Source of the DNA: Streptomyces cellostaticus
Lineage (GTDB): Bacteria; Actinomycetota; Actinomycetes; Streptomycetales; Streptomycetaceae
Length of the DNA: 64,000 bases
Direction of reading: 5' to 3'
Assembly: GCF_001513965.1 (NCBI RefSeq)
Contig: NZ_KQ948032.1
Coordinates: 62,001-126,000, forward strand
The stretch's first letter is position 1. Every line of letters begins with the position of its first letter. Shown here in pieces: positions 3,302-28,009 of this stretch. The notes below the pieces were generated by a model. That model had not been told where the DNA came from. It saw nothing but the letters and a program-made list of their open reading frames with translations, and did not search any database. A program made the translations under genes and the position numbers.

Positions 3302-3793
3302 CTACGGTTCCGTAACAGCGGCGCCGGACGGTTCCGTGACAGCCCTGCCCGGCGGCCCCAGCTCGTCCAGGACCGCCGACAGCCGCTCCAGGAGCCGTAC
3401 GGCCTCGGCGAGTTCGGCCTCCCCCATCGCGGCCGCCAGCCGGTCGGCGAAGACCGCGTGCCCGGGGCCGATCCGCGCCACGGCCGCCCGCCCCTCCCCC
3501 GTCGGTGCGAGGAGCTTCGCCCGGCGGTGGGCCGGGTTGGGCCGGTACTCGGCAAGCCCCCGCTCCACCAGCAGGTCGGCGACGCGCTGCACGCTCTGCC
3601 GGGTGATGCCCATGGCCCGCGCGATGCCCGCCACCGGCAGCGGCTCGGGCAGCACCGCCCCGAGCACCTGCCACCAGGTCGCGGTGAGCCCGGCCGGCCG
3701 GGCCAGCTCCTCGGCGACGGCCAGGAACTGCCCGCCCAGCCGGAAGACCCCTAGCGCGCTGCGGCTGAGCAGGTCCTGGCGTTCCCGGCTCAC
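3302..3793 (-). CDS. MarR-family transcriptional regulator
   Basis: 163 residues with a MarR winged helix-turn-helix: the recognition helix lies in GITRQSVQRVADLLVERG (about 63-80), followed by a wing ending in RRAKLLAPTGEG. Helices at both ends would form the dimer interface. The start overlaps the stop of the DJ-1 gene by four bases (ATGA), so the two are translationally coupled. The C-terminus is a short in-frame duplication (AVTEP twice), a recent tandem repeat. The likely operators are the palindromes over the DJ-1 start. MarR proteins usually repress their own operon and release DNA on binding a phenolic or oxidised ligand; which one is not visible. Confidence 0.88.
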   Translation of the reverse strand: MSRERQDLLSRSALGVFRLGGQFLAVAEELARPAGLTATWWQVLGAVLPEPLPVAGIARAMGITRQSVQRVADLLVERGLAEYRPNPAHRRAKLLAPTGEGRAAVARIGPGHAVFADRLAAAMGEAELAEAVRLLERLSAVLDELGPPGRAVTEPSGAAVTEP

Positions 3794-4404
3794 CGGGCGG
3801 CCGCCTGCTGGAGGACGAAGTACGCCTCGACGTCGGAGTCGTGGTACAGCCGGTACCAGGCGTCCAGCACCTCGCCCTCGTACACCCCGAGGAGCCGGAA
3901 GATCTCCCGGGCGAAGGCGACGGGCTCGGTGGGCCCGGCGGTGATCAAGTGGCCGTCGGTGACCGCGTCGGCGTCGACGTAGCGGCCGATGCCGCCGTAG
4001 TCGGTGGCGGCCAGGTAGTAGGGGCTGGCGCTGGTGTGGGCGCGGTCGTCGAGCAGGCCCTCGCGGGCGAGGCCCGCGGTGGCGCCGCAGATCGCGGCGA
4101 CGGGCACACCGGCGTCGAGGAAGGCGCGGGCCGTGCGGGCGAAGGGGGCCAGTTCGTCGGTTGCGTCCCAGAGGGCGGCGCCCGGGAGGATCAGCAGGGA
4201 GCTGTCCTCGGGGCGCACCTCGGCCGGCGTCAGCTCGGGCTGGATCCGCAGCCCGCCGATGCTCATGACCGGCTCACGGCCGGCCCCCACCGTCAGGACC
4301 CGGTACCCGGCGCGGGCGAGATAGGCGGTCGCGTACCCCGTCTCCCAGTCGGCGAGGCTGTCGTAGACCGCCAGATGCACAGGCTTGCGCGTCACTTCAC
4401 TCAT
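3790..4404 (-). CDS. DJ-1/PfpI family protein
   Basis: 204 residues of the class I glutamine amidotransferase-like fold. The nucleophile elbow is AICGATAG with Cys at about 105, and a conserved early acidic region is present. The family includes chaperones, glyoxalases and regulators; this subgroup often travels with MarR or AraC regulators. It is the first gene of a two-gene operon with the MarR gene. The ATG at 4404 is the first base of a 16-base perfect palindrome, so the transcript is probably leaderless or nearly so, and repressor binding would sit at the start of the gene. Enzyme activity cannot be told from the sequence. Confidence 0.82.
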   Translation of the reverse strand: MSEVTRKPVHLAVYDSLADWETGYATAYLARAGYRVLTVGAGREPVMSIGGLRIQPELTPAEVRPEDSSLLILPGAALWDATDELAPFARTARAFLDAGVPVAAICGATAGLAREGLLDDRAHTSASPYYLAATDYGGIGRYVDADAVTDGHLITAGPTEPVAFAREIFRLLGVYEGEVLDAWYRLYHDSDVEAYFVLQQAAAR

Positions 4405-16891: not shown

Positions 16892-18112
16892 TCAGCCCAC
16901 CGCCACCTCCAGCCCCTCCAACCCCCGGATCACGAAGTTCGGCTTCCGCGTCGGCTCCGCCGCCAGGGTCAGGGTCGGGGCCTTCTCCAGCAGTGCCGTC
17001 ATGGATGCCGCCAGCTCGATGCGGGCCAGCGGTGCGCCGATGCAGTAGTGGATGCCGGCGCTGAAGGAGATGTGCGGGTTGTCCTTGCGCGTGAGGTCCA
17101 GGTGACCGGGGTGTGCGAAGACCTCCGGGTCGTGGTTGGCGGAGCCGAAGAGCATGGCGATTTCCGCGCCCCGGGGGATCACCGTGCCGTCGATCTCGAT
17201 GTCGTCCAGGACCCAGCGCTCGAAGAGCTGGAGCGGGGTGTCGTAGCGCATCAGCTCCTCGACGGCGGTGGGGACGAGGGAGTGGTCGGCGCGCAGGGCG
17301 GCCAGCTGGTCCGGGTTGCGGAACAGGGCCCACCAGCCGTTCACCGTCGCGTTGACCGTGGCCTCGTGACCGGCGTTGAGCAGCAGCACCGCCGTGGAGA
17401 TCATCTCCTGTTCCGTCAGGCGGTCGCCCTCGTCGTGGGCCGCGATCAGGCCGGAGATCAGGTCCTCCCCGGGCTCCTTGCGGCGGGCCGCGATCAGCTC
17501 CCGCAGGTAGTCCGAGAACTCCACCGACGCCCGCACCGCCCGCGCCGCCGTCTCCTCGGACGGGTGCAGCTCGTACATCCCGCAGATGTCCGCCGACCAG
17601 GGCCGCAACTGCGCCCGGTCCGGCTCCGGGATGCCGAGCATCTCGGCGATCACCGCCACCGGCAGCGGTTCCGCCACGTCCGCGAGCAGATCGCCGCCGC
17701 CCGCCTCGACCAGCGCGGCCACCAGCTCGTCCGCCAGGCCGTGCACATACGGTTTCAGCCGCTCCACCGTGCGCGGGGTGAACGCCTTCGACACCAGGCG
17801 CCGGATCCGGGTGTGGTCCGGCGGCTCCAGATCGAGCATGCCGTGGTCGTTGAGGACGTGGAACGGCTCGTGCTCCGGCGGGGGCGCGGTCCGGCCGAAG
17901 TCGTCGTGCGTGAACCGGTGCTGATAGGTGCGGCCGAGGCGGCGGTCGCGCAGCAGCGCCGAGACGTCCGCGTGGTGCGGGACCAGCCACTGGTCGGTCG
18001 GCTCGTACCGGATCACCCGGCCGCGGGCGCGCAGCTCGGCGTAGGCCGGGTACGGGTCGGCGAGGAACGCGGCGTCCCAGGGGTCGAAAGCGAGATCCGA
18101 AGCAGCTGCCAT
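16892..18112 (-). CDS. Cytochrome P450, CYP107U-like
   Basis: 406 residues, a complete bacterial class I P450. The I-helix oxygen motif is AGHEAT, the ExxR pair is in EELMRY, and the heme loop FSAGIHYCIG carries the thiolate ligand Cys357. Length, sequence and position beside two NarL-type pairs match the CYP107U1 locus as I recall it from S. coelicolor, where that enzyme is linked to sporulation. It starts only 20 bases after the first response regulator gene, so it is probably cotranscribed with it. No ferredoxin or reductase gene is adjacent. The natural substrate is unknown. Confidence 0.9.
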   Translation of the reverse strand: MAAASDLAFDPWDAAFLADPYPAYAELRARGRVIRYEPTDQWLVPHHADVSALLRDRRLGRTYQHRFTHDDFGRTAPPPEHEPFHVLNDHGMLDLEPPDHTRIRRLVSKAFTPRTVERLKPYVHGLADELVAALVEAGGGDLLADVAEPLPVAVIAEMLGIPEPDRAQLRPWSADICGMYELHPSEETAARAVRASVEFSDYLRELIAARRKEPGEDLISGLIAAHDEGDRLTEQEMISTAVLLLNAGHEATVNATVNGWWALFRNPDQLAALRADHSLVPTAVEELMRYDTPLQLFERWVLDDIEIDGTVIPRGAEIAMLFGSANHDPEVFAHPGHLDLTRKDNPHISFSAGIHYCIGAPLARIELAASMTALLEKAPTLTLAAEPTRKPNFVIRGLEGLEVAVG

Positions 18113-18131: not shown

Positions 18132-18797
18132 TCACCCCGGCGTGACCAGCCTCGCCTCGTACGCGAACACCGCCGCCTGGGTGCGGTCCCGAAGGCCCAG
18201 CTTCACCAGGATCCGGCTCACATGGGTCTTGATCGTCGACTCCGCCACCACCAGCCGCTCGGCGATCTCCGCGTTCGACAGGCCCTGCGCGATCAGGACC
18301 AGGACCTCCGTCTCCCGTTCCGTGAGCTCGCCGTAGGCCGCCTGGGCCGCCGGCATCAGGCGCGGGGACTCCGAGAGGCGCGAGAACTCCGTGATCAGCC
18401 GTTTGGTGACCGCGGGGGCGAGCAGTGCCTCGCCGGAGGCCACCACCCGCACGCCCTCCGCCAGCTGGCGGGCCGAGGCGTCCTTCAGGAGGAAGCCGGA
18501 GGCCCCCGCCCGCAGCGCCTGGTACACGTACTCGTCCAGGTCGAACGTGGTCAGTACCAGGACCTTTGCCGTGTCGTCCGCCGCGACGATCTCCCTCGTC
18601 GCCTCGATGCCGTTCAGCTCCGGCATACGGATGTCCATCAGGACGACGTCCGGGGCGAGTTCCCGCACCCGCTCGACCGCCTCCCGTCCGTTGACGGCCT
18701 CGCCGACGACCTCGATGTCCGGCATCGCGTTCAGCAGGACGGAGAAGCCCTCGCGCACCATCATCTGGTCGTCCGCGATCAGTACGCGGATCGTCAT
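18132..18797 (-). CDS. NarL-family response regulator 1
   Basis: 221 residues: a receiver domain with the phospho-acceptor Asp in DVVLMDIRMPELNG (about 54) and Lys in FLLKDAS, then a LuxR-type helix-turn-helix (LTERETEVLVLIAQGLSNAEIAERL). It overlaps the kinase gene by four bases (ATGA). The partner kinase is upstream and the P450 follows. It is close to response regulator 2, so the two pairs are tandem duplicates. Confidence 0.94.
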   Translation of the reverse strand: MTIRVLIADDQMMVREGFSVLLNAMPDIEVVGEAVNGREAVERVRELAPDVVLMDIRMPELNGIEATREIVAADDTAKVLVLTTFDLDEYVYQALRAGASGFLLKDASARQLAEGVRVVASGEALLAPAVTKRLITEFSRLSESPRLMPAAQAAYGELTERETEVLVLIAQGLSNAEIAERLVVAESTIKTHVSRILVKLGLRDRTQAAVFAYEARLVTPG

Positions 18798-20149
18798 GCC
18801 TCACCCTCGCGCGCGGTGTCGGCCGCCGGCACTGGCAGGAACACCGTCACCTCGTACCCTCCGTCGGCCGTCGGGCCCGCCGTCATCTCGCCGTTCAGCA
18901 TCGAGACGCGCTCGCGCATCCCGGTGATGCCGTGCCCGGCGCCCGGCGAGGGCTTCAGCAGGGCCGAGGCGGGCGGCGGGCCGTTGACTATGCGCAGGCC
19001 CAGGCCGCCGAGGACGTACCCGATCTCCACCCGCGCGCCCGCGCCCGGAGCGTGCCGCAGCGAGTTGCTCAGCGCCTCCTGCACGATCCGGTACGCCGAC
19101 AGCTCGACGCCCTGCGGCAGTTCGCGCACCGCGCCGGTCACCGCCTTCTCCACCTCCAGTCCGGCCTCCCGCACGTTGGCGAGCAGCCCGTCCAGGTCGG
19201 CGAGGGTGGGCTGCGGGGCGTCCGGGGCCTCGTAGTCCTCCGCGCGGACGACGCCCAGGACCCGGCGCAGCTCGGTCAGGGCTGCCACCGCGTTCTCCCG
19301 GATGGTGGCGAACGCCTTCTCCAGCTCGGGCGGCGGGTTCTCCACCCGGTAGGGCGCCGCCTCCGCCTGGATCGCGACCACCGACATGTGGTGGGCGACC
19401 ACGTCGTGCAGCTCCCGGGCGATGGTCGTGCGCTCCTCCAGCAGCGTGCGCCGCGAGCGCTCGTGCTCCGTCACCGTCTGCTGCGCGGTCACCTCCTGCC
19501 GGGCCTCGCGGCGGGTGTGCCGGACGGTGACCGCCAGTAGGATCAGCGCGGAGAGGATCAGCATCGGGGCCGTGTTGATGTCGTAGTGGTCCTCGCCGAA
19601 GACGGTCACGGACCAGAAGCCGTACAACGCGGTCAGCAGCCACATCCAGGCCGCGGTGCGCGGGCGGGTGCGGATCGCCACGACCGTGAGCACCACCAGG
19701 TGGGAGATGAAACTGCCCGGCAGCCACGGCCACATGTCCCAGCTTTCACCGACCAGCGAGGTGACCGCGGTCGCCGCGAGCGACAGCCAGAACGCGCCGA
19801 CCGGACGCGCGAGGGTCAGCAGCACCGGGACCAGGGCGAGAATCCCGCACACCAGCTGCGTCGCCCCGCCCTCGCTGAAGCTCGCCGCGTTGGCGAGCAT
19901 CGCCACCACGCCGGCGGCGGCCACCAGTACGTGCGGGGTCCAGGGTGCGTACTCCCTCACCCGGCCGGACAGGTGGCGGGTGAGCGGGCCGTCGACGCCC
20001 ATGCGGGGCAGCGGGCGGTAGGCGAAGGCCTCGTGCATCAGGTCCTGCCGCAGCCCCCGCAGGGCGTCGACGACCATCCGGAACTCCGGGCTGCGCGGCC
20101 TGCCGGCCGCCCCCGGCGGTGTCGTCTGCGTGTGCGTCGTCTCGGTCAC
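18794..20149 (-). CDS. Sensor histidine kinase 1, HisKA_3 type
   Basis: About 451 residues. Roughly five hydrophobic spans in the first 230 residues act as the sensor without an obvious outer domain. The phospho-acceptor His is in ARELHDVVAHHMSVV, followed by a HATPase domain with AYRIVQEALSNSLRHA and GAGHGITGMRERV. I chose GTG 20149: a TACCGT -10 element (20157-20162) ends seven bases before it, which points to a leaderless message. The frame could start at 20191. This is the first gene of the kinase-regulator-P450 unit. Confidence 0.9.
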   Translation of the reverse strand: MTETTHTQTTPPGAAGRPRSPEFRMVVDALRGLRQDLMHEAFAYRPLPRMGVDGPLTRHLSGRVREYAPWTPHVLVAAAGVVAMLANAASFSEGGATQLVCGILALVPVLLTLARPVGAFWLSLAATAVTSLVGESWDMWPWLPGSFISHLVVLTVVAIRTRPRTAAWMWLLTALYGFWSVTVFGEDHYDINTAPMLILSALILLAVTVRHTRREARQEVTAQQTVTEHERSRRTLLEERTTIARELHDVVAHHMSVVAIQAEAAPYRVENPPPELEKAFATIRENAVAALTELRRVLGVVRAEDYEAPDAPQPTLADLDGLLANVREAGLEVEKAVTGAVRELPQGVELSAYRIVQEALSNSLRHAPGAGARVEIGYVLGGLGLRIVNGPPPASALLKPSPGAGHGITGMRERVSMLNGEMTAGPTADGGYEVTVFLPVPAADTAREGEA

Positions 20150-20213
20150 GTGCAAAACGGTAGGCCCCGGCGGGGTCGCGGTCGTCCCCACACAGAAGGG
20201 TCCTTGGGGATCC

Positions 20214-20231
20214 CTCTCAGGTACTACGGGT
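20214..20231. promoter_or_regulatory. Shared 18-bp element, copy 1
   Basis: CTCTCAGGTACTACGGGT, upstream of histidine kinase 1 (51 bases before its proposed -10). An identical copy lies at 24712-24729. It is a candidate binding site for one or both NarL-type regulators. Confidence 0.65.
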
Positions 20232-20275
20232 TCTCGGTACGACGGGCAGGGGCACGAGCAGGGGGAGGGCCGGGG

Positions 20276-20950
20276 TCAGCGGCCACCGGGGCGGACCAGG
20301 CCGGACTCGTAGGCGAAGACCGCCGCCTGGGTGCGGTCCCGCAGGCCCAGCTTCACCAGGATCCGGCCCACGTGCGTCTTCACCGTCTGTTCGGCCACGA
20401 CCAGCCGCTCGGCGATCTCCGCGTTCGACAGGCCCTGCGCGATCAGCGCCAGCACCTCCGTCTCCCGCTCCGTCAGATCGCCCACCCGCTGCTTGAGCGG
20501 GACGCGGGGCGTGCCGTCCAGACGGGAGAACTCGGCGATCAGCCGGCGGGTGATGCCCGGGGCGAGCAGCGCGTCACCGGCCGCCACGATCCGGACCGCC
20601 TCGGCGAGCTGGTCCGCGGAGGCGTCCTTGAGCAGAAACCCGGAGGCCCCGGCGCGCAGCGCCTCGTACACGTACTCGTCCAGGTCGAAGGTGGTCAGCA
20701 CGAGGACCCTGATGCCCGGGTGGTCGGCGGTGATGCGGCCGGTCGCCTCGATGCCGCCGACATCGGGCATCCGGATGTCCATCAGGACCACGTCCGGGCT
20801 CAGTTCGGCGACCTTGGCGATCGCGTCCCGGCCGTCCACCGCCTGCCCGATGACCTCGATGTCGGGCTTGGTGTTGAGCAGCACGGTGAAGCCCTGCCGG
20901 ACCATCTCCTGGTCGTCGGCGATGAGTACGCGGATGGTGCCGCTCGTCAT
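20276..20950 (-). CDS. NarL-family response regulator 2
   Basis: 224 residues with the same layout as regulator 1: Asp in DVVLMDIRMPDVGG and a LuxR-type helix-turn-helix almost identical in its recognition helix (NAEIAERLVVAE, then VKTHV against IKTHV in the first). It overlaps kinase 2 by four bases. Near-identical DNA-binding helices mean both regulators could bind the same sites. Confidence 0.94.
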   Translation of the reverse strand: MTSGTIRVLIADDQEMVRQGFTVLLNTKPDIEVIGQAVDGRDAIAKVAELSPDVVLMDIRMPDVGGIEATGRITADHPGIRVLVLTTFDLDEYVYEALRAGASGFLLKDASADQLAEAVRIVAAGDALLAPGITRRLIAEFSRLDGTPRVPLKQRVGDLTERETEVLALIAQGLSNAEIAERLVVAEQTVKTHVGRILVKLGLRDRTQAAVFAYESGLVRPGGR

Positions 20951-22290
20951 GGGGTCACAACTCCTGTCGGGGACGGGTCGGGCGGTGAGGTGGGCGGGGT
21001 GCCGTCCCGGGGGAGGAAGGCCTCGACCGTGAAGCCGCCCTGCCGGGTCCTGTTCGCGGTGACGTTGCCGCCGAGCATCGTCGCGCGCTCACGCATGCCG
21101 AGCAGTCCGTGTCCGGCGCCCGGGGAGGGCGGGACGGGCTGCTGCGGGCGGGAGTTGGTCACCGCCAGGCGCAGACCGTCCGGGACGTGTGCGACCTCGA
21201 CGCGCACCCGGGACCCCGGCGCGTGCCGCAGCGCGTTGCTCAGCGCCTCCTGCACGATCCGGTACGCCGACAGCTCCACACCCGGAGCGTAGGGCCGCGC
21301 CCTGCCCTTGACCTCGGTGGCCACGTCCAGCCCGGCCGCGCGGGTGTTCTCGATCAGTGCGTCGAGCCGGTCGAGCGTGGGCTGGGGAGCGTCCGGGGCC
21401 GCTCCGGTGCCGGGGGCCCCGAGGCCGTAGGGGTCCTCGGGGTTCTCCGAACGCAGCACGCCGAGCACCCGGCGCAGCTCGGTGAGCGCCTCCAGCGCGT
21501 TCTGCCGGATGCTCGCGAGGTTCTCGACCAGCTCCTGCGACGGCTGCTCGACGAGGTGCGGGGCCACCTGCGCCTGGATGGAGATGACCGACATGTGGTG
21601 CGCGACCACGTCGTGCAGCTCCCGCGCGATACGGCTGCGCTCCTCCAGCAGGGTGCGGCGGGCCCGCTCCTCCGCGGTGAGGCTGGTCTGCTGGACGAGT
21701 TCGGCGCGCGCCTCCCGGCGGCCGCGCAGGGCGATGCCGAGCACCACGACGACCGCGGACAGCACCACCGCGATGATCCCGGTGGGCTGGTAGTGCGACC
21801 CGCCCCACACCCCCTCCAGGACGTAGGTGACCAGCGCGGTCAGGGCCAGTGCCTCGACCGACACCCGGGTGCGCACGCGCAGCGCGAGCAGCAGCATGAC
21901 GAACAGGTGCGCGATGATGCCGGCCACGGTCCAGGGCCAGGTGAACGTCACCTCGGCCACCATGGCCAGCTTTCCGTGGACCTCGACGGCTCCCACCACG
22001 GTCCCCGCCATGGACAGCCACCAGCCCGCGATGGGCCGCCACATCGCGAGGACGATCGCGCCGCCCGACGCGAGGGCGATCGCGAAGGCCGGTCCGAAGG
22101 CCAGATGTCCGTTGTCCCCGAGCTGCGCCACCCCGCCGAGCGTGACCCCGAACGCGGCCAGCCACAGCACGCCGTGCGGCAGCCAGCGCAGCCACAGCGA
22201 GGCGGGCAGCGGATCCGGTCTGACGGTCCACAGGTCGTCGTGCAGCACCCGCAGCCAGTACCTGGCCCGGGCCGCGGCCTTCACGAGCAC
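20947..22290 (-). CDS. Sensor histidine kinase 2, HisKA_3 type
   Basis: About 447 residues. Hydrophobic spans fill about 35-210, then ARELHDVVAHHMSVI carries the phospho-acceptor, followed by AYRIVQEALSNALRHAP and GAGHGLLGMRER. The best start is GTG 22290, with GGAGGGG seven bases upstream; GTG 22314 is an alternative. It follows the acyltransferase gene by about 34 bases. The hydrolase, acyltransferase, kinase 2 and regulator 2 therefore look like one operon. Confidence 0.9.
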   Translation of the reverse strand: MLVKAAARARYWLRVLHDDLWTVRPDPLPASLWLRWLPHGVLWLAAFGVTLGGVAQLGDNGHLAFGPAFAIALASGGAIVLAMWRPIAGWWLSMAGTVVGAVEVHGKLAMVAEVTFTWPWTVAGIIAHLFVMLLLALRVRTRVSVEALALTALVTYVLEGVWGGSHYQPTGIIAVVLSAVVVVLGIALRGRREARAELVQQTSLTAEERARRTLLEERSRIARELHDVVAHHMSVISIQAQVAPHLVEQPSQELVENLASIRQNALEALTELRRVLGVLRSENPEDPYGLGAPGTGAAPDAPQPTLDRLDALIENTRAAGLDVATEVKGRARPYAPGVELSAYRIVQEALSNALRHAPGSRVRVEVAHVPDGLRLAVTNSRPQQPVPPSPGAGHGLLGMRERATMLGGNVTANRTRQGGFTVEAFLPRDGTPPTSPPDPSPTGVVTP

Positions 22291-22324
22291 TCGGTTCCCC
22301 TCCGTTTCCGTCACGCGGCCCACC

Positions 22325-23596
22325 CTAGACACGGCGGATCGCCCGCGAGACACGGCGGACCGCCCGCGCAGTCTCCCCGTCCGCGGCCCGGTGCACCCGG
22401 ACCACCCGCGAGCGCCTCCGCGCGGCGGGCCCGCCGGTGCCCGGCAAACGGCGGCGCGTCCCCTGCTCGCACCAGCGGAACGCGGTCCAGCACAGGGCCA
22501 GGACCAGGGTGAACACCGGGAGCCAGAGGAGCCGGGCCGCCACCCAGCCCAGGCTGTCGGGGAGCGTGTGCAGGCCGGGGAGGCGGCCCGCCAGCAGGGC
22601 CGTTGCCGTCGTGGCCATCAGGGCCGTCTGGTGCCACAGGAAGATCGTCATCGCGGAGAGGTTGACCAGGGCCACGGCCGCCCAGACGAGCGGGCGGCGC
22701 ATCGCCCGCCGCAGCCGGTCGCGCAGGAGAAGGGCCAGACCGCACTGGGCCAGGCCGAAGGTGACGGCCGCCAGGGTCGGCGGGTTGAGGTTGGAGACCG
22801 GTGCGCCCGGGACGCCGACCATCGACGCGGGGTAGCCCGCCCCCGTCACGAGGGCGACGGTGGCCGTCGTACCGCCGAGGAGCAGGACCCAGGCCGCGCG
22901 GCGGGTCTCCAGCTCGCCGCGGGTCCAGGCGGCGCCCAGGGTGTACGGGACCAGCCAGCCCGCCGCCAGGTTCACCCAGCCCAGCCAGGAGGGGCCGAGG
23001 TGCAGGCCGAAGCGGAGGACGTCCACGTGCAGGACGACGGCCAGGGGCCAGAGCGGGCTGAGCCGGGCGACCAGCGGGGTGGCTGCCGTCAGCGCGGCGA
23101 AGACCAGGAGGAACCACAGGGGAGACAGGGCCAGTTTGACGAGCGTGTGGAGCGTCCCGAAGGGGGTGCCGGACAGCAGCAGGGCCGTCGCCGCCACCGT
23201 CCACAGGGTGAGGAGGGCGAGGACCGGCCCGAGGAGGCGGGCCAGACGGGTGCGCAGCCAGGCGCCGTACGGCACGCCCCGGGCCCGGGCGGCGGCGTGG
23301 CTGCGGGTCGCCACATGGCCGCCGACCAGGAAGAACACGGCGAGGGTCTGGAAGGCCCAGGAGACCGGGGCCAGCCAGGGCAGGTGCTGCAGCGGGCTCG
23401 CCGTGTGCAGCGTGCCGTCGTCCGCGACCAGGGCCGTGACCAGCCAGTGGCCGAGGACGACACCGAGGATCGCGAAGGCGCGCAGGGCGTCGACCGCGCG
23501 GTCCCGGGATGCGGGTGTGGCGGTGTCCACGCGGTGGGCACCCTGACGGATCGCGTGCAGCGCGCGGCGCGGGGCGCTCAGGGCCGGCTCAGACAC
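22325..23596 (-). CDS. Integral membrane acyltransferase (Acyltransferase_3 family)
   Basis: 423 residues with about ten hydrophobic spans. The start of the family is recognisable in RDRAVDALRAFAILGVVLGH, where the His is the usual catalytic residue, followed by FFLVGGHVA and, later, LWHQTALM. Such proteins acylate exported sugars or lipids. The C-terminus is Arg-rich and ends in a small tandem duplication of about 20 bases (IRRV and VRRV). The start overlaps the hydrolase stop by eight bases, so the two are coupled. The acceptor molecule is unknown. Confidence 0.85.
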   Translation of the reverse strand: MSEPALSAPRRALHAIRQGAHRVDTATPASRDRAVDALRAFAILGVVLGHWLVTALVADDGTLHTASPLQHLPWLAPVSWAFQTLAVFFLVGGHVATRSHAAARARGVPYGAWLRTRLARLLGPVLALLTLWTVAATALLLSGTPFGTLHTLVKLALSPLWFLLVFAALTAATPLVARLSPLWPLAVVLHVDVLRFGLHLGPSWLGWVNLAAGWLVPYTLGAAWTRGELETRRAAWVLLLGGTTATVALVTGAGYPASMVGVPGAPVSNLNPPTLAAVTFGLAQCGLALLLRDRLRRAMRRPLVWAAVALVNLSAMTIFLWHQTALMATTATALLAGRLPGLHTLPDSLGWVAARLLWLPVFTLVLALCWTAFRWCEQGTRRRLPGTGGPAARRRSRVVRVHRAADGETARAVRRVSRAIRRV

Positions 23597-24605
23597 GGGT
23601 CACCTCCGAGGTCTCGCCGAGGGTGATCCGGGCCAGGTTGGCGAGGGAGGCCGAGCCCGGGGTGAAGTAGCCGCTGTGGTCGGCGCCCGCGGCGTCGAAG
23701 ACCCGGGCGCCGAAGGCGCGGGAGACCGGGTCGGTGCCGAAGCCGACGGTGGTGAAGAGGAGGTCGGCGCGGACGTGCGGGACGTGGGCCACCCAGTCGT
23801 CGCTGCCGCGGGCCGCCCAGACGCGGGCGGGCGTGTGCAGGCCGGAGACGCTGTCGGCGCCCGTGCCGGGGCTGCCGACGAGGGCGATGTCGTCGGCGGG
23901 CAGGCCGTGGGCGGCCCGGCCGCAGACGACCGAGCCGTAGGAGTGGCAGAGCAGGGAGAGGTGGGCCCGGGCGGGGGCGAGGGTGCGCAGCTGCCGTACG
24001 AGGGCGCGGAGGCGGGGGGCCGCCTGGTCGGCTCGGGTCGCGGTGGTCACCGTGGTGCTGACCGTGCCCGGGGTCCGGTAGCCGAGCCAGGCGACCACGG
24101 CGACGTGCGTGCCGGTGGGGGCGCGGTGCGTGAGGTCGTCGTACAGGGCTGCCGCCGCCCGGTGGAAGCGGCCGTAGGTGTCCAGGGAGGTGTCGGAGCC
24201 GGGGACGAGGACCGCCACGTGGTCGGCGTGGGTCAGGTCGCCGAGGATCTCCGTGGCCAGTCCGGTGCCTCGGCCGTCGAAGGAGAGCAGGTGGCGGGAG
24301 GGGGCGGCCAGGGCGCGGTCCGCGGCGGCGCGGTGCTTGTCGCCGTGGGCGGCGGCCATGCGGGCCGCCTCGGTGGCGTTGGCCCGGTTCCCCTCGTACG
24401 CGGTGTGCAGGGTGGAGGGCGTGAGGGGGGCCAGGGTGGCGGGGGGCGGGGCAGGGATTTCGGGGCGGGCCGCGCCGGAGAGGGGGGCGACTATGGCGGC
24501 GGTGAGGAGAGTGGAGAGGAGGGCACGGCGCCAGGTGGGGCTTCGACGTGCGTTGCGGTGCGTCGGCGGCTGTGGGTCCGCCGTGTCCGGCCGTGCTTGC
24601 CCCAT
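23589..24605 (-). CDS. Exported alpha/beta hydrolase, DUF1023-like
   Basis: 338 residues. A basic leader and a hydrophobic stretch (RRALLSTLLTAAIVAPLSG, about 27-45) form a signal or anchor. The enzyme part has the nucleophile elbow CHSYGS and a late His in GADHSGYF. It is a serine esterase- or lipase-like fold with no obvious substrate. I chose ATG 24605, which has AAGGGA nine bases upstream. It heads the operon that includes the acyltransferase and the second two-component pair, so envelope lipid or ester turnover is a reasonable inference. Confidence 0.82.
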   Translation of the reverse strand: MGQARPDTADPQPPTHRNARRSPTWRRALLSTLLTAAIVAPLSGAARPEIPAPPPATLAPLTPSTLHTAYEGNRANATEAARMAAAHGDKHRAAADRALAAPSRHLLSFDGRGTGLATEILGDLTHADHVAVLVPGSDTSLDTYGRFHRAAAALYDDLTHRAPTGTHVAVVAWLGYRTPGTVSTTVTTATRADQAAPRLRALVRQLRTLAPARAHLSLLCHSYGSVVCGRAAHGLPADDIALVGSPGTGADSVSGLHTPARVWAARGSDDWVAHVPHVRADLLFTTVGFGTDPVSRAFGARVFDAAGADHSGYFTPGSASLANLARITLGETSEVTRV

Positions 24606-24711
24606 GGTCGGCTTCCCTTCAGATCGCCCGGCCATCGGGCTTGTCTGACAAGGAAGTTAGGAATCGGGGGCTGTCGACGGCATCCCGCCAGGGAGCTGTC
24701 CTGGGTTGTAG

Positions 24712-24729
24712 CTCTCAGGTACTACGGGT
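24712..24729. promoter_or_regulatory. Shared 18-bp element, copy 2
   Basis: Identical to 20214-20231. It precedes the hydrolase-acyltransferase-kinase 2 operon, 52 bases before a possible -10 (TAACTT on the minus strand, 24654-24659). That spacing nearly equals the one at the kinase 1 promoter. Confidence 0.65.
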
Positions 24730-25849: not shown

Positions 25850-27061
25850 CTACCCGAGCACCTCCCCCAGCACCCGGGCCGCTCGTTCCGCGTCGCCGAA
25901 GCCGACGTACAGCGGGGTGAAGCCGAAGCGGAGGATGTCGGGGTGGCGGAAGTCGCCCACGACTCCTCGGGCGATCAGGCGCTTCATCACCTCGCCCGCG
26001 TCCGGGCAGCGCAGGGCGACCTGGCTGCCCCGCTCGCCGTGCGGCTCCGGAGTGACCGAGACGACCCGGCCCGGCTCGGTGTACGCCGTGACGCACTCCA
26101 GGAAGAAGTCCGTCAGGGCCAGCGACTTGGCACGGACCGAGGAGACCAAGACGCCGTCCCAGACCTCCAGGGCCGCCTCCAGGGCCAGCATGGACAGGAT
26201 GTCCGGGGTGCCGACACGGCCGCGCAGGGCGCCCGGCGCCGGGGCGTACGACGGACTCATGCCGAAGGGGTCGGCGTGGGAGTTCCAGCCGGGCAGGGGC
26301 GAGTCGAAACGGTCCTGCAGATCACGGCGGACGTAGAGGTACGCGGGCGAACCAGGGCCGCCGTTCAGGTACTTGTACGTGCAGCCGACCGCCAGGTCGA
26401 CCCCGTGCTCGTCCAGGCCGACCGGCAGCGCGCCCGCGCTGTGGCACAGGTCCCAGACCGCGAGCGCGCCGGACGCGTGGATCGCGGCGGTGAGCGCGGG
26501 CAGGTCGTGCAGGCGGCCGCTGCGGTAGTCGACATGGTTCAGCAGGACCGCCGCCGTGCGCCCGCTCAGCGCCGAAGGCACCTGCGCCGGGGTGAGCGCC
26601 CGCAGCCTGCGGCCGGTCATCCGGGCCGCCGACTCGGCGATGTAGCCGTCCGTGGGGAACGTCGTCGCGTCGACCAGGATCTCGTCCCGGTCCTCGCCCG
26701 CCATCCGGATCGCCGCCACAAGTGCCTTGAAAACGTTGACACTTGTCGAGTCGCCCACGACGATCTGGCCCGGCGCCGCGCCCACCAGCGAGGCGATCCG
26801 GTCGCCGATCCGCTCGGGGGCCGTCCACCAGCCGCTCTCGTCCCAGGAGCGGATGCGCAGTTCGCCCCACTGCCGGCGGACGACGTCCTCGACCCGGCCG
26901 GGCACGTTCGCCGGCAGGGCTCCGAGTGAGTTCCCGTCCAGGTAGATCCCCGCGGCGTCAGCCGCATGATCGGATGCAGTATCCAGGACGAAGCGGGAGC
27001 GCAGCGGGGCCAGTTCGTCCGCCGCGTCCAGCTTCTGCGCGCGCAGCACCAGCTCAGACAT
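25850..27061 (-). CDS. kynU: Kynureninase
   Basis: 403 residues. A PLP enzyme that splits kynurenine into anthranilate and alanine. The cofactor Lys230 is in CTYKYLNGGPG, and other family blocks are LDGNSLGALP, DSTSVNVFKAL and WDLCHSAGALPV. The ATG at 27061 lies eight bases inside the end of the dioxygenase gene, so translation is coupled. The upstream frame stays open but is dioxygenase coding sequence. No anthranilate-degrading genes follow, so anthranilate is either exported, recycled, or used by another locus. Confidence 0.96.
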   Translation of the reverse strand: MSELVLRAQKLDAADELAPLRSRFVLDTASDHAADAAGIYLDGNSLGALPANVPGRVEDVVRRQWGELRIRSWDESGWWTAPERIGDRIASLVGAAPGQIVVGDSTSVNVFKALVAAIRMAGEDRDEILVDATTFPTDGYIAESAARMTGRRLRALTPAQVPSALSGRTAAVLLNHVDYRSGRLHDLPALTAAIHASGALAVWDLCHSAGALPVGLDEHGVDLAVGCTYKYLNGGPGSPAYLYVRRDLQDRFDSPLPGWNSHADPFGMSPSYAPAPGALRGRVGTPDILSMLALEAALEVWDGVLVSSVRAKSLALTDFFLECVTAYTEPGRVVSVTPEPHGERGSQVALRCPDAGEVMKRLIARGVVGDFRHPDILRFGFTPLYVGFGDAERAARVLGEVLG

Positions 27062-27902
27062 GAGACCTCGCCGTCCACAGCTCCGGGAACACGTTCTTGC
27101 GGGCGCGCTTCTCCAGCCAGGCCACGCCGGCCGAGCCGCCGGTGCCGGGCTTGGCGCCCATCGCACGCCGGGTGGCGACCAGGTGGTCGTTGCGCCATCG
27201 CCACACCAGCTCGGCGACGTCGGTCAACGCCTCGCCCAGGCGGGCCAGTTCGGCGTCCTCGTCACCGGAGTAGACCGCCGACCAGGCCGCCTCCACCGCG
27301 TCGGAGGACTCGTAGCGCTGGGCGACGTCCCGGTTCAGGACGGAGGCGGGGATCAGGTGGCCGCGGCGCGCGAGGAGCCGTACGACCTCGTCGTACAGGC
27401 TCGGCTCGTGCAGCGCCTTCTCCAGTTCCGCATGGACGCGCGGGGCGCCGCGGTGCGGGACGAGCATCGACGCGGACTTCTCGCCGAGCAGGAACTCCAT
27501 GCGGCGGTACATCGCGGACTGGAAGCCGGAGCCCTCGCCGAGGGCCGAGCGGTACGAGTTGAACTGCGCCGGGGTCAGCTGGCCGAGCGGCCTCCAGGAG
27601 GCGTTCAGGGCCTCCAGTTCCCGTACGGAACGCTTCAGCGCGGCGACCGCGGTCGGGACGTCATCGCCGCGCAGGGCCTTCGCGGCGGTCTCCCACTCGT
27701 GCACGATCACCGTGAACCACAGCTCCATGACCTGGGTCGTCACCAGGAAGACCATCTCTCCGGGGTCGTCGGAGAGGGTGTGCTGGAGGTGGGTGAGCAC
27801 GTCCGCCTTGACGTAGTCCTCGTACGGCGTCGTACCCGCGAAGTCGAGATGCGGGGTCTCGGGCTCAGCGGCCTCGAAAGGGGGGTGAGCCTTTTGGGAC
27901 AT
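27054..27902 (-). CDS. kynA: Tryptophan 2,3-dioxygenase
   Basis: 282 residues, all-helical and heme-dependent. It opens tryptophan to N-formylkynurenine. Family signatures include TPYEDYVKADVLTHLQ, EMVFLVTTQVMELWF, SGFQSAMYRRMEFLLG, and WRWRNDHLVATRRAMG. The ATG at 27902 has AGGAGA seven bases upstream. It is the first gene of the kynurenine unit, so its roughly 110-base leader, after the DUF3151 terminator, should carry the promoter. Confidence 0.97.
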   Translation of the reverse strand: MSQKAHPPFEAAEPETPHLDFAGTTPYEDYVKADVLTHLQHTLSDDPGEMVFLVTTQVMELWFTVIVHEWETAAKALRGDDVPTAVAALKRSVRELEALNASWRPLGQLTPAQFNSYRSALGEGSGFQSAMYRRMEFLLGEKSASMLVPHRGAPRVHAELEKALHEPSLYDEVVRLLARRGHLIPASVLNRDVAQRYESSDAVEAAWSAVYSGDEDAELARLGEALTDVAELVWRWRNDHLVATRRAMGAKPGTGGSAGVAWLEKRARKNVFPELWTARSHV

Positions 27903-28009
27903 CGCTGTCTCCTGTGTGTTACTCCGGGTAGCGGTCCGCCCCTGCCGATGCCGGCACGGGGGCCCCGGTCCCCAAGCGGAATCCTCCGCAATCCCCCCGG
28001 ATACGGCAA

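Follow-up and report, generated by a model that had tools for sequence, protein, structure and literature searches.

A shared operator-like element in the promoters of two paralogous two-component operons of Streptomyces

In a 64,000-nucleotide stretch of the Streptomyces cellostaticus genome (contig NZ_KQ948032.1, positions 62,001 to 126,000; hereafter the window), an 18-bp element, ACCCGTAGTACCTGAGAG on the coding strand, lies ahead of each of two operons encoding paralogous two-component systems. Operon 1 comprises the genes of histidine kinase 1 (HK1) and response regulator 1 (RR1), with a cytochrome P450 gene 19 bp on; operon 2 encodes an Abhydrolase_8 protein, an Acyl_transf_3 acyltransferase, histidine kinase 2 (HK2) and response regulator 2 (RR2). 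All genes concerned are on the minus strand. Here we document the sequence of the element, its conservation and geometry, its restriction to two promoters and its persistence through reciprocal gene losses. Judged from these comparisons, a shared regulatory site tying both two-component operons appears well supported. The 18-mer is probably the distal part of an operator-promoter block of about 50 bp, through which RR1 and RR2 would control their own and each other's operons, and the site is best read as a switch that the twin regulators share, and not as one serving a large gene set.

Results

Two copies of the element in matching promoters

The original prediction, made from the window alone, placed the 18-mer exactly before HK1 and before the hydrolase-acyltransferase-HK2 operon, 51 and 52 bases from the proposed -10 hexamers. 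Both copies were confirmed (Table 1), with none expected (mean count 0.00 in 100 dinucleotide shuffles of the window), as were both gaps, to TACCGT (20162-20157) and TAACTT (24659-24654). No third copy within 3 mismatches occurs in the 64-kb window.

Promoters of relatives were stacked for operon 1 (79 full-length rows with the core within 3 mismatches, 2 of 81 rows having been dropped) and operon 2 (42 rows with the core within 2 mismatches). Conservation in these stacks exceeds 18 bp, the 18-mer sitting in a conserved block of ~50 bp that reaches the -35 position. A second conserved block spans +24 to +47 from the first base of the core; both stacks show GACG at +41 to +44, and the -10 hexamer follows at +66. 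The core-to--10 distance is 66 in 60 rows and 65 in 19 rows of operon 1, and 66 in 37 of the 38 scored rows of operon 2 (64 in the other; four rows have no score). Twenty further chosen sites, including unlinked ones and one from another genus, keep a spacing of 64-66 bp with GACG upstream. Compared outside the element, the two promoters agree in 0.396 of cells at the same offset, against a maximum of 0.346 over 70 shifts. Each operon carries in its own promoter, at a fixed place, a conserved operator-like block, as autoregulated two-component operons do. A hairpin reading of the block was judged unlikely: it lies upstream of the proposed start, so that structure in a downstream transcript is not a likely reason for its conservation.

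Within one genome the two 18-mer copies differ by 0-7 bases and are exactly identical in 3 of 42 genomes; the identity seen in the window is the upper tail of a distribution. No coupling between the two copies within a genome was seen in the alignment, judged by eye.

Restriction to two promoters

When the 9.8-Mb genome was interrogated with the 14-bp core GTAGTACCTGAGAG, exact matches were found at two places, both in the window; another 12 places, at 2 mismatches, appear to be background, as a reversed-pattern control yields 20. A 45-bp bipartite pattern retrieved the two window sites at 0 and 1 mismatches (control, 0) and two other places at 2 and 3 mismatches (L200, L201), which were viewed as lists of open reading frames only. 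A broad regulon was rejected on these two scans, of the kind that the original prediction had proposed as a check. No wider regulon was found in the genome with the 14-mer and 45-bp patterns, scans that did not include a profile search for strongly degenerate sites.

Among 199 Streptomyces genomes, the exact 14-mer occurs in 44 and exact GTARTACYTGAGA in 95, with at most two GTARTACYTGAGA sites per genome in 198 of the 199. Since only one genome (G077) exceeds two, the site looks like one that acts locally, as a two-promoter unit; near the third exact site of G077 (L213), none of eleven window-gene queries matches. Where a contig has two exact sites, these usually share an orientation and are separated by 4.4-5.4 kb, with closer pairs in G172, G182 and G148 (0.5, 0.9 and 2.5 kb).

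Conservation across the genus

The core before HK1 was followed through 80 named loci, all Streptomyces records, representing the best 80 of 590 found with HK1 and hence close relatives. Scored over 13 bp (GTAGTACyTGAGA), mismatches of 0, 1, 2, 3, 4 and 5 occur in 44, 21, 10, 3, 1 and 1 loci, respectively, placing 75 of 80 within 2 mismatches; over 200 shuffles of the core, the number of loci reaching that level averaged 0.04 and never exceeded 3. In 14 loci the DNA covered includes no upstream esterase. When the other 66 were grouped by operon 2 content, both elements lay within 2 mismatches in all 37 loci bearing at least half of the hydrolase, HK2 and RR2, and element 1 did so in 18 of the 22 loci that lack every operon 2 gene. 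In three loci (L040, L080, L087) the hydrolase is retained but HK2 is missing, as is RR2 in whole or for the most part; their element 2 stands at 1, 3 and 0 mismatches. The remaining four are other cases (L056, L088, L090, L114). Loss of element 1 where RR2 and HK1 are close together (L185, L186) was considered and rejected, a diverged element and promoter still being present there.

Two identical 18-bp copies so close together in the window could also arise by chance or by a recent local duplication of DNA. We give this almost no credence, as zero copies are expected and the element is kept across the genus, and in one other genus, amid diverged surroundings.

Some loci show further features. 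Remnants of the RR2 C-terminus persist where most of operon 2 is gone (L188, L189, L040, L088), suggesting repeated deletions in the region; the hydrolase gene of L056 (~3390-3874) seems partly inverted inside an otherwise complete operon 2; and upstream of HK1 in L057 and L069 the element overlaps the apparent TAG stop of the upstream esterase (CTGGTAGTAC), operator and stop codon sharing bases.

Reciprocal losses and separated pairs

HK1 and HK2 were searched in the 199 genomes, scoring the eight best candidates in each genome, and the regulators in ten chosen genomes, with all candidates scored in nine and 150 of 164 in G298. G181 and G102, which pair as sisters in the RR2 tree (100/97), are without HK1-RR1; in both, the P450 gene directly follows RR2 and element 2 is exact, the two halves lying on separate short contigs in G102. 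Two others have only an RR2-type regulator, with element 2 at 2 mismatches in G058 and the contig ending before the promoter in G192. Conversely, RR1 is the only regulator of RR1/RR2 type in G298, where the hydrolase-acyltransferase operon is on another contig behind its element, at 2 mismatches and the right spacing. In G087, G056 and G282, the last from a different genus, both pairs are present on different contigs, each behind its own element.

Seventeen genomes have neither kinase at E <= 1e-105, and 16 of these lack exact GTARTACYTGAGA, which occurs in 94 of the 182 genomes with at least one kinase (counts that take genomes as independent). The exception, G001 (79% complete), has exact GTARTACYTGAGA and a hydrolase with element 2. 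These counts bear on two other explanations. The conserved block covers much of the promoter, which would suit a third, unlinked regulator or a special sigma factor that reads the element and controls both operons. We consider this improbable, given the lack of a convincing other site in the genome and the near-absence of the exact site from kinase-less genomes, with the exception showing the hydrolase itself. In the window, moreover, the stop codons of the esterase and RR2 precede the element by 38 and 44 bp, a position that would also suit the 3' end of an upstream gene, such as a terminator or RNA tail. That origin is scarcely credible: no esterase is near the element in G087, G058, G056 or G282, the esterase is inverted in L102 and L117, the spacing to the -10 is fixed, and the 16 kinase-less genomes have no exact site (the 3' region of the esterase was not directly searched in these).

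The original prediction had joined both pairs, the hydrolase, the acyltransferase and the P450 into one regulon. Conservation, fixed geometry and reciprocal losses uphold this for the two operons with their hydrolase and acyltransferase genes. The P450 is tied to the site by position only, and loosely: close to RR1 in the window, it lies within 60 bp in just 21 of 72 relatives' loci that have it (gaps estimated from tblastn ends), more than 200 bp away in 30 and more than 1 kb away in 14.

Ancestry of the regulators

Both pairs score above Pfam cut-offs, the regulators for a receiver and a GerE (LuxR-type) output domain and the kinases for HisKA_3 and HATPase. RR1 and RR2 are 75% identical over 220 amino acids, with the next paralogues of the genome at 61-62%, and HK1 and HK2 are 46% identical over 396. 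A regulator tree groups RR1 with RR2 and separates the two from four long-branched paralogues (99/98). Within it the RR1 rows are a single clade (98/100), at the base of which the G282 row is drawn, and the RR2 side is without resolution. Given this tree and the unlinked pairs, including those of another genus, the duplication appears to be old and the sites do not seem to owe their likeness to recent copying, although horizontal transfer into G282 may have occurred.

Nearly identical recognition helices had been offered as evidence for a shared site. In alignments of 79 RR1 and 49 RR2 rows (at least 82% identity, about 180 amino acids), the helix residues KTHV and the following R are indeed invariant. 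Three helix positions differ: S/Q and S/G are fixed in all rows, and I/V is nearly so (I in 76 of 79 RR1 rows, V in 49 of 49 RR2 rows). The likeness was set aside as weak evidence because helices about as similar occur in other NarL-type regulators of the genome, TVKTHVGRIL of paralogue L122 being like RR2 and TVKTHVSRIL of L134 close to RR1.

Gene starts and neighbouring genes

In operon 1, a GTG follows the -10 hexamer by 7 nt in 58 of 79 rows and by 6 nt in 18 (76 of 79 together), and for this reason the HK1 transcript is probably leaderless, with translation most likely beginning at GTG 20149 and not at the listed 20191. The listed start is upstream of the -10 box; the conserved GTG 20149 stands 7 nt after TACCGT. 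HK2 may begin at GTG 22314 (MTET, as in HK1), a likelier start than the listed 22353, which overlaps the acyltransferase gene. The operon 2 leader contains, between the -10 and the ribosome-binding site (24626-24640), a conserved stem-loop-like stretch, GCCCGATGG-CGGGC, in the 42-row stack; ATG 24635, inside it, is probably not the start. Upstream of the esterase (25850-27905 of the window) are genes for kynureninase and tryptophan 2,3-dioxygenase (Pfam), the latter often a neighbour in relatives.

Table 1. Positions in the window of the elements, promoter features and genes of the two operons
Feature	Positions	Strand	Basis
Element 1, ACCCGTAGTACCTGAGAG; proposed operon 1 operator, distal part	20214-20231	minus	Exact match; core before HK1 in 75/80 loci at <=2/13 mismatches
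Second conserved block, operon 1 promoter, reaching -35 position (GACG 20183-20186)	20180-20203	minus	Column conservation, 79 rows; GACG also in 20 chosen sites
-10 hexamer TACCGT, operon 1	20157-20162	minus	Core-to--10 distance 66 (60 rows) or 65 (19 rows) of 79
HK1, HisKA_3 histidine kinase; proposed leaderless start at GTG 20149	18794-20149	minus	Pfam; promoter rows
RR1, NarL-type (receiver + GerE) response regulator	18132-18797	minus	Pfam
Cytochrome P450 gene 19 bp downstream of RR1, probably reached by read-through here; linkage varies among relatives	16892-18112	minus	Pfam; gap counts
Element 2, second copy of the 18-mer; proposed operon 2 operator, distal part	24712-24729	minus	Exact match; conservation
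Second conserved block, operon 2 promoter	24678-24701	minus	Column conservation, 42 rows; window copy GATG, GACG in most rows
-10 hexamer TAACTT, operon 2	24654-24659	minus	Distance 66 in 37/38 scored rows
Alpha/beta hydrolase (Abhydrolase_8), signal-like N-terminal segment, first gene of operon 2, ATG 24605	23589-24605	minus	Pfam; sequence
Acyltransferase (Acyl_transf_3, a membrane family)	22325-23596	minus	Pfam
HK2, HisKA_3 histidine kinase (listed open reading frame)	20947-22353	minus	Pfam
RR2, NarL-type response regulator, 75% identical to RR1	20276-20950	minus	Pfam; alignment

Discussion

The systems described here have likely counterparts in S. coelicolor, where SCO3638/3639 and SCO3640/3641 share the RR-HK-RR-HK order of the window and a P450 (CYP107P) is present at SCO3636 (PMC6838473). 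RR1, RR2 and HK2 are likely orthologous to the SCO3638, SCO3640, SCO3641 set, an assignment by gene order and gene kinds and not by S. coelicolor sequence. These three genes are among 39 induced only by bacitracin and not by moenomycin or vancomycin (PMC3123327), and both SCO pairs are listed as NarL-type without names (PMC9739842). Another study picked the pairs as homologues of AbsA1/AbsA2, with identities near 30% for the kinase and 50% for the regulator (PMC3098853). AbsA2 is a negative regulator of antibiotic production, a role not found for the SCO3638-3641 systems in the literature searched. Neither an operator nor autoregulation or cross-regulation of SCO3638-3641 is reported in the literature searched, which covered few subscription papers and some sources in part.

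VraSR responds to cell-wall antibiotics and is autoregulated, and like the window systems VraSR and LiaSR combine a HisKA_3 kinase with a NarL-type regulator. The solved regulators nearest to RR1, among solved structures only, are VraR entries 5hev, 7ve6 and 4gvp (best E 2.8e-53), while NCBIfam ranks NarL first for the regulator, below the NarL cut-off. In contrast to the window, VraSR/LiaSR include a LiaF/VraT-type third gene, which has no counterpart among the P450, regulator, kinase, acyltransferase and hydrolase genes of these operons; the window kinases, at 36.7 and 41.1 bits, do not match NCBIfam LiaS (cut-off 450 bits); and the duplicated architecture with its own operator also distinguishes the window. 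A second comparison is with BldM-WhiI of Streptomyces, two regulators that act together on promoters as heterodimers (PMC4125116). Those are orphan, atypical developmental regulators, whereas the window has two complete kinase-regulator pairs that apparently autoregulate.

In the mechanism we propose, HK1 or HK2 would sense a signal, plausibly cell-envelope stress, given the bacitracin response of the likely S. coelicolor orthologues. Once phosphorylated, the regulator would bind the GTAGTACyTGAGA core, about 65-79 bp before the transcription start, together with the second block running to -35; in that position it would help RNA polymerase at a weak -35/TANNNT promoter, and the HK1-RR1 and hydrolase-acyltransferase-HK2-RR2 operons would be raised together. 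We infer that RR1 and RR2 are the binders, each reading both sites, and that the signal concerns the envelope. Activation is suggested by where the site lies, upstream of the -35 and reaching it, and by the joint induction seen in S. coelicolor; the regulators may possibly act as repressors instead.

Several observations weigh against a common switch of this kind. Among the loci, L114 has HK2-RR2 and no recognizable element 2, L090 has HK2-RR2 with a diverged element 2 (4 mismatches), L095 has HK1-RR1 without element 1, and L057, L108, L113 and L115 stand at 3-4 mismatches. Wrecked operons, too, can have an element next to them (L188, L189 and L088, whose element has a 2-bp deletion), so that persistence of an element can be mere recency. 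The strict 45-bp pattern (1 mismatch allowed), searched in 121 genomes drawn from the family, occurs in 17 of 28 of this genus and in only 1 of 93 of other genera, where horizontal transfer into that genome (G282) is possible. In S. coelicolor, SCO3639 is not named in the bacitracin-induced list and deletion of SCO3638-3641 left bacitracin resistance unchanged (PMC3123327), and null mutants of both pairs had no antibiotic-production phenotype (PMC3098853). Binding or expression data for the site were not found in the literature searched. Finally, the flanks differ consistently, GGA following element 1 and GCTAC element 2, so that each regulator could prefer its own copy. Carried further, this would be private autoregulation, with element 1 read by RR1 alone and element 2 by RR2 alone; the two sites would then resemble each other by descent from the duplication, with little cross-recognition. 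The constant flank differences, the three helix differences and the rarity of exactly identical copies would fit such an arrangement, which we nonetheless regard as unlikely: element 2 is kept before the hydrolase in the absence of an intact RR2 (L040, L080, L087, G298), in one case unlinked from RR1.

Joint control by the two regulators, our preferred reading, would be in kind ordinary autoregulation; the unusual part is that an old duplicate pair has apparently been kept on a common operator. A more extended account, which we hold tentatively and at somewhat less than even expectation, is that the pairs duplicated before Streptomyces and its sister genus split and were never insulated at the DNA level. 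Both regulators, perhaps as RR1-RR2 heterodimers, would read one bipartite operator at both operons, forming a self-amplifying two-input switch from which either pair could be lost without losing control of the effectors.

The usual view is that two-component systems, once duplicated, come under pressure to diverge so as not to interfere with each other. The comparative data suggest the opposite of insulation at the DNA end, and natural single-loss genomes exist for both halves of the arrangement. With a candidate operator now defined for two little-characterized, bacitracin-linked systems, cross-recognition becomes directly testable, and the hydrolase and acyltransferase gain a likely role in the same response.

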